NCBI GenBank assembly: GCA_947501215.1
Contig: CANMUS010000001.1
Span: 62,001-126,000 of the forward strand
Direction: 5' to 3'
Length of the DNA stretch: 64,000 nucleotides
Source of the DNA: an uncultured Erythrobacter sp.
GTDB taxonomy: Bacteria > Pseudomonadota > Alphaproteobacteria > Sphingomonadales > Sphingomonadaceae
The translations under genes were made by a program, and so were the position numbers. Positions 20,599-59,233 of the stretch are shown one piece after another (positions within the stretch are counted from its first letter, which is position 1; each line of letters starts with the position of its first letter). The notes beneath the pieces were generated by a model that saw only the letters and a program-made list of their open reading frames with translations, made no database searches and was not told the origin of the DNA.

Positions 20599-20681
20599 AA
20601 AAGTTTTGATGACCTGTCATTCGCTTTGCGTGAGCCTTGCGGCATTGACGCGTTTTCGCCCTTGCGCCATTGCGCCGCTCC

Positions 20682-21581
20682 ATGGACCGAAACCCGCGTA
20701 AATCCTTCCAGGGCATGATCCTTGCGCTGCACGATTTCTGGAGCGCGCATGGTTGCCTGATTCTCCAGCCCTACGACATGCGCATGGGGGCGGGGACCTT
20801 CCACACCGCCACCACCCTGCGCGCGCTGGGGCCGGAGCCGTGGAATGCAGCTTTCGTGCAGCCCTGCCGCCGGCCGACCGATGGCCGCTATGGCGAGAAC
20901 CCGAACCGGCTGCAGCATTACTACCAGTACCAGGTGATCCTGAAGCCGAGCCCGCCCGACATCCAGGGCCTCTACCTCGAAAGCCTGCGCATCATCGGCA
21001 TCGATCCGCTGAAGCACGACATCCGCTTCGTTGAAGACGACTGGGAAAGCCCGACGCTGGGCGCATGGGGCCTTGGTTGGGAAGTCTGGTGCGACGGGAT
21101 GGAGGTCACCCAGTTCACCTATTTCCAGCAGATGGGGGGGGTCGACTGCAAGCCCGTCGCGGGCGAGCTGACCTACGGGCTCGAACGTCTCGCCATGTAT
21201 ATTCAGGGCGTCGACAACGTCTACGATCTCGACTTCAACGGCCAGGGCGTTTCGTATGGCGACGTGTTCCTCGAGAACGAGAAGCAGATGTCGAAATGGA
21301 ACTTCGAGGTCGCCGAGACCGACGCGCTATTCGACCTGTTCAACAAGGCCGAGGCGGAGTGCAAGAACGCGCTTGCCAATGAAGTGCCCATCGCGGCGTA
21401 TGAGCAGGCGGTCGAGGCCAGCCACATTTTCAACCTGCTGCAGGCACGCGGCGTGATCAGCGTGCAGGAACGCGCCAGCTACATGGGCCGGGTGCGCGAT
21501 CTCGCGCGTGGCAGCTGCGAGGCGCATATGGCAAAGGAAACGCCCGCGTGGGCCGAGAAATATCCGGAGTGGTCGAAATGA
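20682..21581 (+). CDS. glyQ: Glycyl-tRNA synthetase alpha subunit
   Basis: Catalytic subunit of the bacterial alpha2beta2 GlyRS, 299 residues. Class II core motifs: [40 protein letters not shown] (motif 2 region) and [14 protein letters not shown] (motif 3). ATG at 20682 is preferred to a TTG 12 bases earlier; no convincing ribosome-binding site is visible. The stop overlaps the glyS start as ATGA, fitting equimolar synthesis of the two subunits. Confidence 0.97.
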
Positions 21582-23998
21582 GCGGCTCCGACTTCCTCCT
21601 CGAACTGCGCAGCGAAGAAATTCCGGCCCGCATGCAGGCCGGTGCGCGCGCCGAACTCGAAAAGCTGTTCCGTCGCGAAATGGAAGCGGCCGGTGTCGAG
21701 GCTGGCGAGATCACCGTCTGGTCGACCCCGCGCCGCCTTGCACTGATTTCGCGCGGGCTTCCGGAAGCGACCGAAGCGGTCAGCGAGGAGCTGAAAGGCC
21801 CTCCGGTCGGCGCGCCCGATCAGGCGCTCGACGGGTTCTGCCGCAAGGCGGGGGTCGAGAAAGGCGACCTCGAAGTCCGCGAGGTGAAGGGCCGCGAGAC
21901 CTATTTCGCCGTGAAGAATATTCCCGGCCGCGCGACGAAGGACCTGCTCGCCGAAGCAATTCCCGCGATCATCCGCGACTTCAGCTGGCCCAAGTCGATG
22001 CGCTGGGGGGCTGCCTCGATCAGCACCGAGAGCCTTCGCTGGGTCCGCCCGCTGTCGGGCATCGTCGCGCTGCTGGGTGACGAGGTGGTCGAATGCGAGG
22101 TGCATGGCGTAACCTCCGGTGCGGTCACGCTGGGCCACCGCTTCCATCACTCGGGCGACATCACCATAGGCAATGCGGACGATTACGCGCTGAAGCTGCG
22201 CGCCGGTCACGTCATCGTCGATCACGAGGAACGGCAGAACATGATCCGCTCGGGCGCCGCCAAGGTGGCGAGTGAAGCCGGACTCAAACTGGTCGAGGAC
22301 GAAGGACTGGTGATCGAGAACGCCGGACTCACCGAATGGCCCGTCCCGCTGCTCGGCCGGTTCGAGGAGGATTTCCTCGAAGTCCCGCCCGAGACGATCC
22401 AGCTCACCGCGCGAGTGAACCAGAAGTATTTCGTCTGCGAGGATGCGCAGGGCGAGCTCGCCAATGCCTTCATCTGCACTGCCAATATCGAGGCGGAAGA
22501 CGGCGGCGCGCGGGTGGTCGACGGCAACCGCAAGGTCCTCGCCGCGCGCCTGTCCGACGCGCGCTTCTTCTGGGACGTCGACCGCAAGAAGACCCTCGCC
22601 GAGCACGCCAGGGGGCTTGAGCGCATCACCTTCCACGAGAAGCTGGGCACCGTCGCCGACAAGGTGGAGCGTGTGTCCAAGCTAGCAAGGTGGTTGGTCG
22701 AGGAAGGGATAGTAAAACCCACTTCCGTTCGCCCTGAGCCTGTCGAAGTGCCGTCCTTCACTTCGAACACTGGACCAGAAGTAAAGAACGGGGCGTCGAC
22801 AAGCTCAGCCCAAACGGTTGAGGAATTGGCCGACATGGCCGAACAGGCCGCACGCCTCGCCAAGGCCGACCTCGTCACCGAAATGGTCGGTGAATTTCCC
22901 GAGCTGCAGGGCCTGATGGGCGGCTACTACGCCCGCGCCGAGGGACTGCCCGATGCTGTCGCCGACGCGATCCGCGATCACTACAAGCCGGTCGGGCAGG
23001 GCGATGAAGTGCCGACTGCTCCGGTGACGGTGGCGGTGAGCTTGGCAGACAAGCTGGACACGCTAGTCGGGTTCTTCTTCAATCAGGATCGACCCACGGG
23101 CTCAAAAGATCCGTTTGCTCTCCGTCGCGCTGCCCTCGGTGTGATTTCAACTCTGATAGAGAATGATAGCCGCGCAAAGCTTCTCCCCATCGTTATGCAC
23201 GCGGGTGCTCCATTCATTGCTTATCGAATGGATCGGATAAGCAAGGATTTCCGTGACCGCATATTAGATCATTATAAGTCCGATGACCCAAGCCTGGACG
23301 ACATTCGAAGGCTTAGTGCTTGGCGCGATGAAATGTCCGACGACGAGGGCTTCGAGATTCTTACCCTTGGTGCTTACCAGTCGTTCGTCGGTCCATTACT
23401 CGATTTCTTCGCCGACCGCCTCAAAGTCCAGCAACGCGAAGCAGGCGTGCGCCATGACCTCATCGATGCGGTCTTCGCACTCGGCGGAGAGGACGATCTC
23501 GTCCGCCTGCTCGCCCGCGTGAAGGCGCTCCAGTCTTTCATGGAAACCGAAGACGGCGCCAACCTGCTCGCCGGATACAAGCGCGCGGCCAATATTCTCA
23601 AGAAGGAAGACTGGCACGGCGCGGAAGGGGAAATACCGCGCACCGGCGAGGAAGACCCGCTGGCGCTGGTCGACGATCCCGACATGAAGGCGGTGATCGA
23701 CGCGAAAATGTCCGAGCGTCACGCGAGGGAGCTTTCCTACACGCCCGAGCCGGCCGAAAAGGCGCTGATGGATGCGCTCGACACTTCGGAACCGGCTGCT
23801 TCGCGAGCCATTGCAGCGGAGGACTTCGGCGCGGCGATGGCAGCGCTGGCCAGTCTGCGCGGTCCGATCGACCGTTTCTTCGAAGAAGTGACGGTAAATG
23901 CGGATGAAGAAAACAAGCGAGCACACCGGCTCGACCTGCTTGCAGCTTTTCGTGCTGCAGTGCACAAAGTCGCGGATTTCTCTCGTATCGAGGGATGA
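21578..23998 (+). CDS. glyS: Glycyl-tRNA synthetase beta subunit, with an internal palindromic repeat
   Basis: tRNA-binding subunit of GlyRS, 806 residues, longer than the usual 690-750. N-terminal [15 protein letters not shown] and the [15 protein letters not shown] region are typical, as is the HD-like part with [14 protein letters not shown]. Two oddities: residues about 383-413 are encoded by a 93-bp repeat element inserted in frame, and codons around 23100-23400 are markedly AT-richer than the rest. The C-terminal anticodon-binding region ([21 protein letters not shown]) is intact, so the protein should be functional. Confidence 0.95.
22725..22817. repeat. Palindromic repeat element inside glyS
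   Basis: Imperfect terminal inverted repeats: the left end CCGTTCGCCCTGAGCCTGTC matches the reverse complement of the right end (CCGTTTGGGCTGAGCTTGTC) in 16 of 20 positions. Total 93 bp, an exact multiple of three. In the glyS frame it encodes a Pro/Ser/Thr-rich stretch containing VRPEPVE and STSSAQT, the peptide signature of the widespread CTGAGC-TGTCGA repeats found in many proteobacteria. A sister element lies at 58060-58151. Confidence 0.8.
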
Positions 23999-56696: not shown

Positions 56697-57323
56697 TCAA
56701 CCGAACTGCTCGGCTACCAGTTTTGCGAACGCATCGGCCCGGTGGCTGATGACGTGCTTCTCGTCAGGATCGAGCTCGGCGAAGGTCTCTTCGCGCCCGA
56801 TCGGCACGAAGACGGGGTCGTAGCCGAAGCCCATGGTCCCTCGCGGAGGCCAAGTCAGGGTGCCCGGCGCTTTGCCTTCGTAGACAGCGTACTCGCCGTC
56901 GGGCCAGGCGAGGGCCAGGACGCAATGGAAAGCGCAGGAGCGAGGCGCATCGATGCCCCTTTCCTGCAGCATCCCTTCGACCTTGCCCATAGCCATATAC
57001 CAGTCGCGGCCTGGATCGCCTTCGAACCACTGCCGCTCGGCCCAGTCCGCCGTGTAAACGCCCGGACGGCCATCCAGCGCATCGACCGAGAGGCCGCTGT
57101 CGTCGGCCAGCGCGGCAAGTCCTGATGCCTCCGCCGAGGCCCGCGCCTTGATCAGCGCATTCTGCACGAACGTAGTGCCGGTTTCGGCAGGCTCGGGCAG
57201 GCCGAGCGAGCCTGCCGAGAGACATTTGACACCGTGCGGTTCTAGCAGCGCGGATATCTCCTTGAGCTTGCCCGCATTGTGCGTCGCAATCACGAGGCTG
57301 CCGGAACCGAGGCGGCGGGTCAT
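56697..57323 (-). CDS. rdgB: Non-canonical purine NTP pyrophosphatase (RdgB/HAM1)
   Basis: Removes ITP, XTP and dITP from the nucleotide pool. 208 residues with [11 protein letters not shown] at the N-terminus, [20 protein letters not shown], and [13 protein letters not shown] plus SHRADA near the C-terminus. Coupled to rph by an ATGA overlap, a standard pairing. Confidence 0.97.
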
Positions 57324-58036
57324 TTGCGCGTCGCCTCGTCCTGGGCCTTGAATATCTGTGCACAGCCCATCTGGGCAAGTCGCAGGAGGCGCAGGAAAGC
57401 CTCTTCATCGTAAGGTGCGCCCTCTGCGGTGGCCTGCGCTTCGGCGATCTTGCCCCCTTCAATCAGGACGAAGTTGGCGTCCGCGTCGGCATTGCTGTCC
57501 TCGGGGTAATCGAGGTCGAGCACCGGCGTGCCTTGATAGACGCCGCAGGAAATTGCCGCGACCTTTGCGGTGATGGGATCCTGCGTGATTGCGCCCGACT
57601 TCATCAGCCCATCGACTGCGAGCCGCAACGCCACCCAAGCGCCCGAGATCGAGGCCGTCCGCGTGCCGCCATCCGCCTGGATCACATCGCAATCCAGCGT
57701 GATCTGCCGCTCACCGAGCTTCTTGTGATCGACCACGGCGCGCAAGGAACGGCCGATAAGTCGCTGGATTTCCTGTGTCCGCCCGCTCTGCTTGCCCTTG
57801 GCCGCCTCGCGTTGGCCGCGGGTGTGGGTGGCGCGCGGGAGCATCGAGTATTCGCCTGTCACCCAGCCTTCGCCCTTGCCGCGCAGCCACGGCGGGATAC
57901 GCTCTTCGACGCTGGCGGTGCATAGCACCCGCGTTTCGCCGAAGCTGATCAGGCAGCTGCCTTCGGCATGCTTGGTGTAGCCGGTCTCGATAGTGATGGC
58001 GCGCATTTCGTCCGGCGCGCGTCCTGAAGGTCGCAT
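57320..58036 (-). CDS. rph: Ribonuclease PH
   Basis: Phosphorolytic 3'-exoribonuclease that trims tRNA ends, 238 residues. Landmarks: [54 protein letters not shown] and [18 protein letters not shown]. The start is just 24 bases from the palindromic repeat at 58060-58151, so its promoter must lie in or beyond that element. Confidence 0.97.
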
Positions 58037-58059: not shown

Positions 58060-58151
58060 CCGCTCACCCTGAGCCTGTGGAAGGGTCGTTCTTCGTTTCT
58101 GGCGCTGCGCTAGAAGAAATTGCTGCCCTTCGACAAGCTCAGGGCGAACGG
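58060..58151. repeat. Palindromic repeat element between rph and hrcA
   Basis: Left end CCGCTCACCCTGAGCCTGTG and the reverse complement of the right end (CCGTTCGCCCTGAGCTTGTC) match in 16 of 20 positions. Total 92 bp, the same size and end sequences as the element inside glyS at 22725-22817, but with a different middle. It fills most of the 153-base divergent promoter region of rph and hrcA. Confidence 0.8.
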
Positions 58152-58189: not shown

Positions 58190-59233
58190 ATGAATTCGCC
58201 GCCGCTCACCGACCTGTCCGACCGCGCGCGGGATATCTTCCGCCTTGTGGTCGAAGGCTATCTCGATAGCGGGCAACCAGTCGGATCGAAGGCGCTCGCT
58301 TCCGATGGCGGACTGAACCTTTCGCCGGCTTCCATCCGCTCGGTGCTAGCGGAGCTGGAGCAGCGCGGATTGCTGGCAGCCCCGCATACCAGCGCCGGAC
58401 GCATGCCGACCGAGACCGGTCTGCGCCTATTCGTCGATGCGATGATGCAGGTCGCAGAACCGACGCGGGAAGAGCGTGCCGCCATCGAACAGCGCCTCGG
58501 CGAGCCGGGCCCGATCGAGCGGGCGCTGGAGGAAACCTCCGCTCTCCTGTCCGACTTATCCGGCGCGGCAGGCATGGTAATGGTCCCGACGCGCGAGCCG
58601 AGGCTGGCGCAGGTTTCGCTGACCGCGCTCGACGCTAATCGCGTCCTCGCGGTGCTGGTGGGTGAGGATGGCCACATAGAAAATCGCGTGCTGGCGCTTC
58701 CGGCCGAGGCGCTGGGCACCTCGCTCGAACAGGCGAGCAACTACCTAACCGTGCGAACATCGGGCCGCACTTTGGCCGAGGCGGCAAAGCTGGTTGAGGC
58801 AGAGATCGTTTCAGGCAAGTCCGCGCTCGACGAGGCTAGTCGCGATCTCGTGCAACGGGGACTCGCGACATGGAGCGAGGATGCGAGCCATCGGCCGGTG
58901 CTAATCGTGCGCGGTCAGGCAAACTTGCTCGACGACAGCGCGCTGTCCGATATCGAACGGGTGCGCTCGCTGCTCGACGACCTCGAAAGCAAGCAGTCGG
59001 TGTCCGCCCTGCTCGAACGGGCCCGCCGTGCCGAGGCCATGCGCATTTTCATCGGGAGCGAGAACCGGCTGTTCTCTCTGTCCGGCTCGTCCGTCATCGC
59101 CTCGCCCTATCGCGACCGCGAGGGCAAGGTCGTCGGCGTGCTGGGCGTGATTGGCCCGACCCGGTTGAATTACGCGCGAGTCGTCCCCATGGTGGATTTT
59201 ACGGCCCGATCCTTGGGCAAACGCATAGGCTGA
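58190..59233 (+). CDS. hrcA: Heat-inducible transcription repressor HrcA
   Basis: Repressor of the GroE regulon, 347 residues. N-terminal winged helix with PVGSKALA and LSPASIRSVLAELEQRGLLAAPHTSAGRMPTETGLR (positions about 27-60), then the dimerisation domain and the GSENRLFSLSGSSVIASPY region. The operator CIRCE was not seen upstream here or before dnaK. grpE follows after 12 bases. Confidence 0.95.
   Translation: MNSPPLTDLSDRARDIFRLVVEGYLDSGQPVGSKALASDGGLNLSPASIRSVLAELEQRGLLAAPHTSAGRMPTETGLRLFVDAMMQVAEPTREERAAIEQRLGEPGPIERALEETSALLSDLSGAAGMVMVPTREPRLAQVSLTALDANRVLAVLVGEDGHIENRVLALPAEALGTSLEQASNYLTVRTSGRTLAEAAKLVEAEIVSGKSALDEASRDLVQRGLATWSEDASHRPVLIVRGQANLLDDSALSDIERVRSLLDDLESKQSVSALLERARRAEAMRIFIGSENRLFSLSGSSVIASPYRDREGKVVGVLGVIGPTRLNYARVVPMVDFTARSLGKRIG

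Follow-up and report, generated by a model that had tools for sequence, protein, structure and literature searches.

A site in the glycyl-tRNA synthetase beta subunit gene of Sphingomonadaceae occupied by many families of palindromic repeats

The palindromic segment in the glyS gene of the window, the 64,000-nucleotide stretch of DNA that was analysed, probably occupies a long-lived landing slot in the beta subunit of glycyl-tRNA synthetase (GlyRS), a site that palindromic repeats enter. Many families of palindromes were found at the same site, the reading frame was kept, the site turned over repeatedly on the gene tree, and filled sites were nearly absent outside the family among the matches listed.

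The palindrome in glyS and its copies in the genome

The glyS gene was read as an 816-residue open reading frame at 21548..23998 of the plus strand (PF02092, 5.4e-181; PF05746; profile match to GlyRS beta chains in the PDB), with the ATG at 21578 a likelier start than the listed GTG at 21548. A 303-residue open reading frame lay upstream and overlapped it (20670..21581, plus strand), and we take this to be, in all likelihood, glyQ, the gene of the GlyRS alpha subunit.

A sequence-only reading had placed a palindromic repeat in frame at 22725-22817. The element was real, and by its ends it extended slightly further, over 22724..22818 of the plus strand (CTGAGC-TGTCGA family; F1, cluster C13). 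Its ends (TCCGTTCG) ran from 22724 to about 22818 (~94 bp), the letters being TCCGTTCGCCCTGAGCCTGTCGAAG ... CGTCGACAAGCTCAGCCCAAACGGT, and the glyS frame continued through it without a stop. Terminal inverted repeats, as in miniature inverted-repeat elements (MITEs), were present and imperfect. Folded as single-stranded DNA, the palindrome reached -23 kcal/mol (z = -4.28), which none of 200 shuffles equalled. No GTAG tetranucleotide occurred within 22724-22818, and no CGTC tag was present at the hairpin end.

When aligned with GlyS of 35 congeners and 23 members of the same order, the whole slot, from the Ile-Val codons to Asp-Met-Ala-Glu-Gln, lay at 22715..22831 of the plus strand (117 nt, 39 residues), compared with 12-15 nt in most empty alleles. 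The Ile-Val codons at the left edge (22709..22714, plus strand) were ATAGTA here and ATCGTC in many relatives, with Ile replaced by another residue in a few species. The right edge was a Leu-Ala signature (22826..22831, plus strand) of the pattern [LFI]A[DTQNSA].

In an AF2 model (17-row alignment, mean pLDDT 79), residues 394-419 scored below 50 and lay between helices 369-385 and 424-437; the insert had pLDDT block means of 31-46 and no secondary structure. It is thus predicted to sit in a disordered loop, where the structure would tolerate it. By alignment with Escherichia coli GlyRS, the slot lay in the HD domain, with Gln378 on one side and Ile379 on the other. This domain binds the tRNA acceptor stem, with Thr406 and Gln409 contacting C74, in the passages of PMC9908026 that concern it; both residues are some 27 positions beyond the slot site (E. 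coli numbering).

The ends of the element recurred across its own genome (G000; 3.04 Mb, 13 contigs). A 97-bp query gave 37 BLAST matches on both strands (38 with a longer query), which collapsed to 24 distinct places, the palindrome often matching on both strands. A second copy, claimed at 58060-58151 (plus strand), was found there as a member of the same repeat family (z = -3.65); it is intergenic, between divergent open reading frames at 57320-58036 (minus strand) and 58190-59233 (plus strand), presumably rph and hrcA.

Covering open reading frames were sought for 19 own-genome copies, and ten of them (nine loci) were scanned against Pfam. Besides glyS, the one recognised protein with a copy inside was TrmD (L008; own genome C1:399114-400022, minus strand), which carried an F1-family palindrome in frame (HFVRAEPVEAPHFSSSASPEVKDGPSTSSGRTVSS). 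Across 25 genomes of the genus, own included, the TrmD match ran in one piece through the insert in four (G000, G002, G020 and G021), broke there in 20 and was lacking in G013. In three further scanned frames the palindrome was upstream of the domain, and no domain was seen in five more. One open frame (L021:1220-2464; C3 near 468775) spanned a GIY-YIG domain, a palindrome copy and an S4/pseudouridine synthase, in that order; it may be a fusion by way of the repeat or two genes.

Occupancy of the site in the genus, the family and the class

A search for GlyS covered 61 genomes, and the sequence was read in 36 members of the genus, G000 among them; G013 gave no GlyS match and G038 a match in pieces on two contigs. 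In 12 of the 36 genomes (11 in frame) the site, which lies in each between Ile-Val and the Asp-x-Ala-Glu helix, was filled, and in 24 it was an empty, short loop. The inserted residues were likewise absent from 23 genomes of other families. With the residues absent from these genomes and the ends recurring, neither observation that would have spoken against the sequence-only reading (residues conserved in alphaproteobacterial GlyS, or no further copies of the ends) was made.

The genus inserts differed in DNA, several unrelated palindrome types occurring at one place in glyS. F1 was found in G000, G001, G003 and, as a variant, G026; F2 (HSREGGNP...LDPRLRGGD) in G014, G016 and G018; an F2-related type (VPAKAGT...IPAFAGMT) in G029; F4 (TPDLIRGG...GSGAGVT) in G021 and G023; and F5 (NPLPPAGGG...PDPSRRREG) in G022. 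The earlier view of a single moved element was right about the element and too narrow about the site, which holds unrelated palindromes in other species. In G005 (a two-contig assembly) the frame broke inside a G+C-rich palindrome, with an ATG of the downstream frame just before the element; this may be a sequencing error, a split protein or a pseudogene. A recent insertion private to the window genome was rejected: G001 and G003 had related copies with the same ends, so the window copy does not look private. The GlyS tree columns of G022, G028 and G035 were identical to those of Qipengyuania algicida, Q. aquimaris and Q. intermedia, which makes Qipengyuania the most likely genus and Sphingomonadaceae, as GTDB uses the name, the probable family.

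Across the family, 149 evenly drawn genomes were searched with 132 residues of an empty GlyS; 144 matched and five did not. The match was broken at the site in 58 of the 144 (own included) and in 47 of 95 genera. Two or more genomes represented 48 of the genera; 23 of these were mixed, 10 all broken and 15 all unbroken. The 57 other broken alleles were fetched, and 55 kept the frame, their edges lying 75-168 nt apart; the exceptions were G125 (frame unresolved) and G202 (meeting a contig end).

Eighty named loci were also read. On the tree, 66 fell inside the family (30 filled, 3 short, 33 empty), in genera that include Sphingobium, Sphingomonas, Novosphingobium and Alteraurantiacibacter, with some species overlapping the surveyed genomes; the 14 rows from other orders were all short (6-9 nt). 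Two records titled Arthrobacter (L240) and Rhodobacterales (L169) had GlyS placed among Sphingomonadaceae, and their titles are probably wrong. The frame was kept in 96 of the 98 filled alleles read (exceptions G005 and G125). Distinct inserts numbered 92, a set that leaves out G125, G202 and G005; net of the empty loop, inserts added about 20-51 codons.

Outside the family, 24 genomes of other families were searched and 23 read, with 0 palindrome-sized inserts and a modestly longer loop in G047. Class-wide, 241 of 289 genomes matched, 237 of them outside the family. Among the matches listed, which are fewer than two thirds of the total, at least two of these 237 had multiple matches (G265 and G269); the best match of G265 spanned the model in one piece, and at least one genome (G269) was probably broken. 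A lone partial match may conceal a further case. Three of the four family genomes in this draw were broken, which indicates that the test for broken sites works. On both searches, the class-wide one among the matches listed, the slot was rejected as a general property of alphaproteobacterial GlyS.

Turnover was followed on a quick maximum-likelihood tree of 115 GlyS sequences, built from 619 columns that excluded the insert; support was weak on 37 of its 109 inner branches. The change counts did not include short alleles, and the shuffled-label, sister-pair and near/far-tree analyses also omitted the 14 other-order rows. On this one tree there were at least 25 changes between filled and empty and at least 37 changes of content. 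Shuffling the labels of the 98 family rows gave a mean of 31.6 state changes (minimum 24) versus 25 observed, so the filled or empty state was only loosely tied to ancestry. Well-supported sisters held different palindromes (L198/L212, SH-aLRT 100; L196/L240, 99) or were filled and empty (L177/L202, 100; L167/L168, 99; G023/G033, 98). State changes numbered 25 on the tree of the near flanks, 24 on that of the N-terminal part and 25 on that of the C-terminal part; as the near-flank tree had no fewer changes, no slot allele was seen to travel with its flanks.

The pattern [LFI]-A-[DTQNSA] at the right edge, chosen after the alleles had been viewed, was present in all 92 filled alleles, in 4 of 6 short ones and in none of 49 distinct empty ones, these last being those of the genus and named sets and excluding the family-survey empties. 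From this signature we infer that the slot may be one lasting allele class with exchanged content, convergence being the rival interpretation.

Palindromes, host repeats and junctions

The 92 distinct inserts were 75-168 nt long and had a median RNA folding z of -5.7 (60 shuffles each), with 83 below -2; the median of same-length flanking windows, taken from family-survey alleles only, was -0.5, with 12 of 110 below -2. Some of the nine inserts that did not fall below -2 look decayed (G201, G177, G098, G081 and L216).

When local alignment scores were clustered by average linkage, with the cut set at the 99.9% level of shuffled pairs, 15 clusters resulted, of which 11 had more than one member (a stricter cut gave 19). 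Mean scores between the 15 clusters were below the 99.9% shuffled level. Single cross-cluster pairs scored above shuffles, so some inserts are mosaics; single linkage, which chained families through these mosaics (7, 8 or 12 clusters at three cuts), was rejected. Within cluster C8, one palindrome type was read in different frames across species (HSREGGNP, TPAQAG, HPGESRDP).

The inserts are resident host repeats, with exceptions, and host abundance fits the occupant in part and fails to predict it. Three genomes gave 23, 24 and 20 F2 matches, and these were precisely the ones that hold F2 in glyS; each of the other 13 searched gave 0-6. F4 matched 20 times in G021, 15 in G005, 13 in G020, 12 in G026, 10 in G014 and 8 in G023. 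Genomes with F1 in glyS had 37 (G000), 11 (G003), 8 (G001) and 0 (G026, the variant) F1 matches, and genomes with no F1 in glyS had 51 (G020), 19 (G002) and 17 (G023). F5 had three matches in its host G022, all inside the glyS insert itself. The Rfam entry AaHKsRNA41 (Aggregatibacter sRNA 41) weakly matched a CTGAGC-TGTCGA palindrome (L101:650-807), far below the gathering score, and may itself be a palindromic repeat of that sort.

In 12 close pairs, pooled pN/pS was 0.57 for inserts versus 0.14 for flanks. Differences occurred at 104 of 834 stem positions (12.5%) versus 109 of 474 loop positions (23.0%), and changed base pairs were broken in 50 cases, compensated in 17 and kept through a one-side change in 13; these constraint results are suggestive only, since the pairs share members and the stems were predicted from one member. 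The inserts of these pairs evolve under weak constraint (pN/pS 0.57); the proposal that the insert is kept as a spacer in glyS is no more than plausible.

CGTC-type hairpins were carried by clusters C5, C7 and C8, the CGTC being seen in inserts of, for example, G021, G016 and G131. By eye, the CGTC tag coincided with the preceding host codons, linker-free, in 11 of the 30 alleles of these clusters (examples: G021, G023, L164, L167, G131, G170, G205, L201, G074 and G102), and a linker preceded the CGTC element in the remaining alleles.

Ends of tRNA genes were found at some junctions. The G099 insert (L101) started with GTC-GGGGGTTCAAGCCTCTCCTCCGCTACCA, which had two mismatches against the 3' end of tRNA-Met of its own genome, and the G088 insert (L145) with GTC-GGGGGTTCGAGTCCCTCCGGGGCCACC, which differs from the 3' end of its own tRNA-Arg(cct) in the last base only. 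The L240 and L224 inserts look similar to these, the match to a host tRNA having been made for G099 and G088 only; G081 was dropped as such a case, its stretch being too degraded. A T-arm pattern occurred in 3 of the 92 inserts, compared with 0.14 per set after base shuffling (200 rounds). Rfam gave no tRNA in five tRNA-end candidates with E up to 5, all listed matches being below gathering scores, so tRNA identity rests on other evidence, including the host tRNA gene matches of G099 and G088. These tRNA 3' ends sit ahead of the palindrome inside a gene for a tRNA synthetase. The shared GTC junction suggests copying with short homology. By eye, no target-site duplication was seen against empty relatives, the edges of which have diverged, and no parent transposon was seen in a search for PF01797.

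Explanations for the filled site and likeness to known repeats

On the landing-slot reading, the Sphingomonadaceae loop that joins two helices of the HD domain, with Ile-Val ahead of it and Leu-Ala-Asp-x-Ala-Glu behind, would tolerate long unstructured insertions, and palindromic repeats resident in the genome would be copied into it. As glyS is essential, as a rule only frame-keeping, stop-free copies would survive, and an occupant would later be replaced by another palindrome, decay or be lost. Entry may depend on a copying process that joins at (C)GTC, with no dedicated transposase, as the coincidence of the CGTC tag with ATCGTC and the GTC-joined tRNA ends would suggest. A fuller version is put forward tentatively: the loop may be a natural trap that records palindromes with no known transposase joining at (C)GTC, takes along neighbours such as a tRNA 3' end, and is refilled repeatedly, lasting and perhaps selected.

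The filled sites could also stem from many fully independent insertions, the loop being simply permissive and no slot allele lasting; Leu-Ala would then be a helix start that any long insert needs and that arose convergently. This has a modest chance of being right: trees of near and far gene parts gave equal changes (24-25), one palindrome type was used in several reading frames (C8), and TrmD of the own genome also holds an in-frame F1 copy. Against it, Leu-Ala was present in all 92 filled and none of the 49 empty alleles, across all clusters, and was kept in 4 of 6 short ones. Selection for a hairpin or spacer function (ribosome slowing, RNA stability, folding, assembly or tRNA handling) that keeps refilling the site is rather doubtful. 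The filling of one site of an essential gene in many genera agrees with it, as do stems that differ about half as often as loops in the 12 close pairs and the contact that the HD domain of E. coli GlyRS makes with the tRNA acceptor stem (PMC9908026, passages on that domain), but many species, including sisters of filled ones, have the short loop, 23 of 48 genera are mixed, changed base pairs were mostly broken (50 versus 17 compensated and 13 kept), and insert pN/pS was relaxed.

One ancestral insertion, from which the families arose as it diverged and as glyS passed between species, is very unlikely. It would account for the same-ended F1 of G000, G001 and G003, for the F2 shared by G014, G016 and G018, and for the three groups into which single linkage chains most inserts; for the whole set it was largely refuted by between-cluster mean scores below the 99.9% shuffled level, by the use of one palindrome type in several frames, and by the resemblance of F1, F2 and F4 inserts to repeats elsewhere in their hosts. 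Mobilisation of a GTAG-type repetitive extragenic palindrome (REP) into glyS by a RAYT transposase would suit an element that is palindromic, repeated and short, and is extremely improbable: PF01797 had 0 matches in the own genome, with 5 of 14 control genomes matching, and matched 1 of 24 genus genomes (own included; none in the other 23), and 22724-22818 held no GTAG. For the own genome, RAYT mobilisation is refuted by the PF01797 result unless the enzyme has been lost.

The landing slot shares features with several known systems. The Rickettsia palindromic elements (RPE; Ogata et al. 2000, 2002, as cited in PMC10969869) are palindromes of about 150 bp translated in frame in proteins of an alphaproteobacterium, in many unrelated genes, according to the part of PMC10969869 that treats them. 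The window repeat resembles these Rickettsia elements in effect, being in frame inside a protein gene with no stop; it differs in that one glyS site takes many unrelated families, where RPE, as that part of the source has it, enter many unrelated genes. The proposal of a moved, Rickettsia-like repeat in a surface loop held for the repeated in-frame palindrome and the predicted disordered loop; a RAYT enzyme was not supported (PF01797, 0 matches).

CGTC REPs have a CGTC tag at the end of a hairpin with an 8-9-bp stem, occur in intragenic copies, and have no dedicated transposase reported in the sections of PMC3733652 on them. Clusters C5, C7 and C8 are like them in their CGTC-type hairpins, and the window F1 is unlike them in having no CGTC tag. 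The same sections mention REPs of E. litoralis and S. alaskensis that lie in 'tRNA synthetases', the gene being unnamed in the text, and give recB in two Xanthomonas species as a shared REP site, with no many-family slot across a family (PMC3733652). GTAG REPs and REPINs with RAYT are similar as short repeated palindromes and differ in that F1 has no GTAG and that no RAYT was found in the window genome (PF01797). MITEs are small, have inverted repeats and are occasionally fused into open reading frames, in the portion of PMC10969869 on them; the window element is MITE-like in its inverted repeats, small size and in-frame intragenic position; a target-site duplication was not seen by eye, with diverged edges, nor, by PF01797, a parent transposon.

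No published account of the glyS slot was found in the literature searched, which covers few subscription journals; on that ground we take the recurrent, many-family slot to be new. Intragenic REPs were already known. How short palindromes spread with no dedicated transposase is stated as an open question for CGTC REPs in the relevant part of PMC3733652. A single site with some 15 palindrome clusters and with empty and filled sisters helps define the ends of such elements and gives before-and-after pairs, and it points to GTC junctions and tRNA-end capture, both of which are testable. An essential tRNA synthetase gene here accepts strong hairpins and about 20-51 extra codons, in the HD domain that grips the tRNA acceptor stem in E. 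coli (PMC9908026, the same passages).

Other parts of glyS were variable as well. Residues of about 547-615 of the window protein formed a second region very variable among congeners, by eye lacking a palindromic-repeat look. A second palindrome, of F2 type and reversed, was found open in frame in C-terminal glyS near window-protein residue 697 in L081 (G005) and in L035/L084 (G021).
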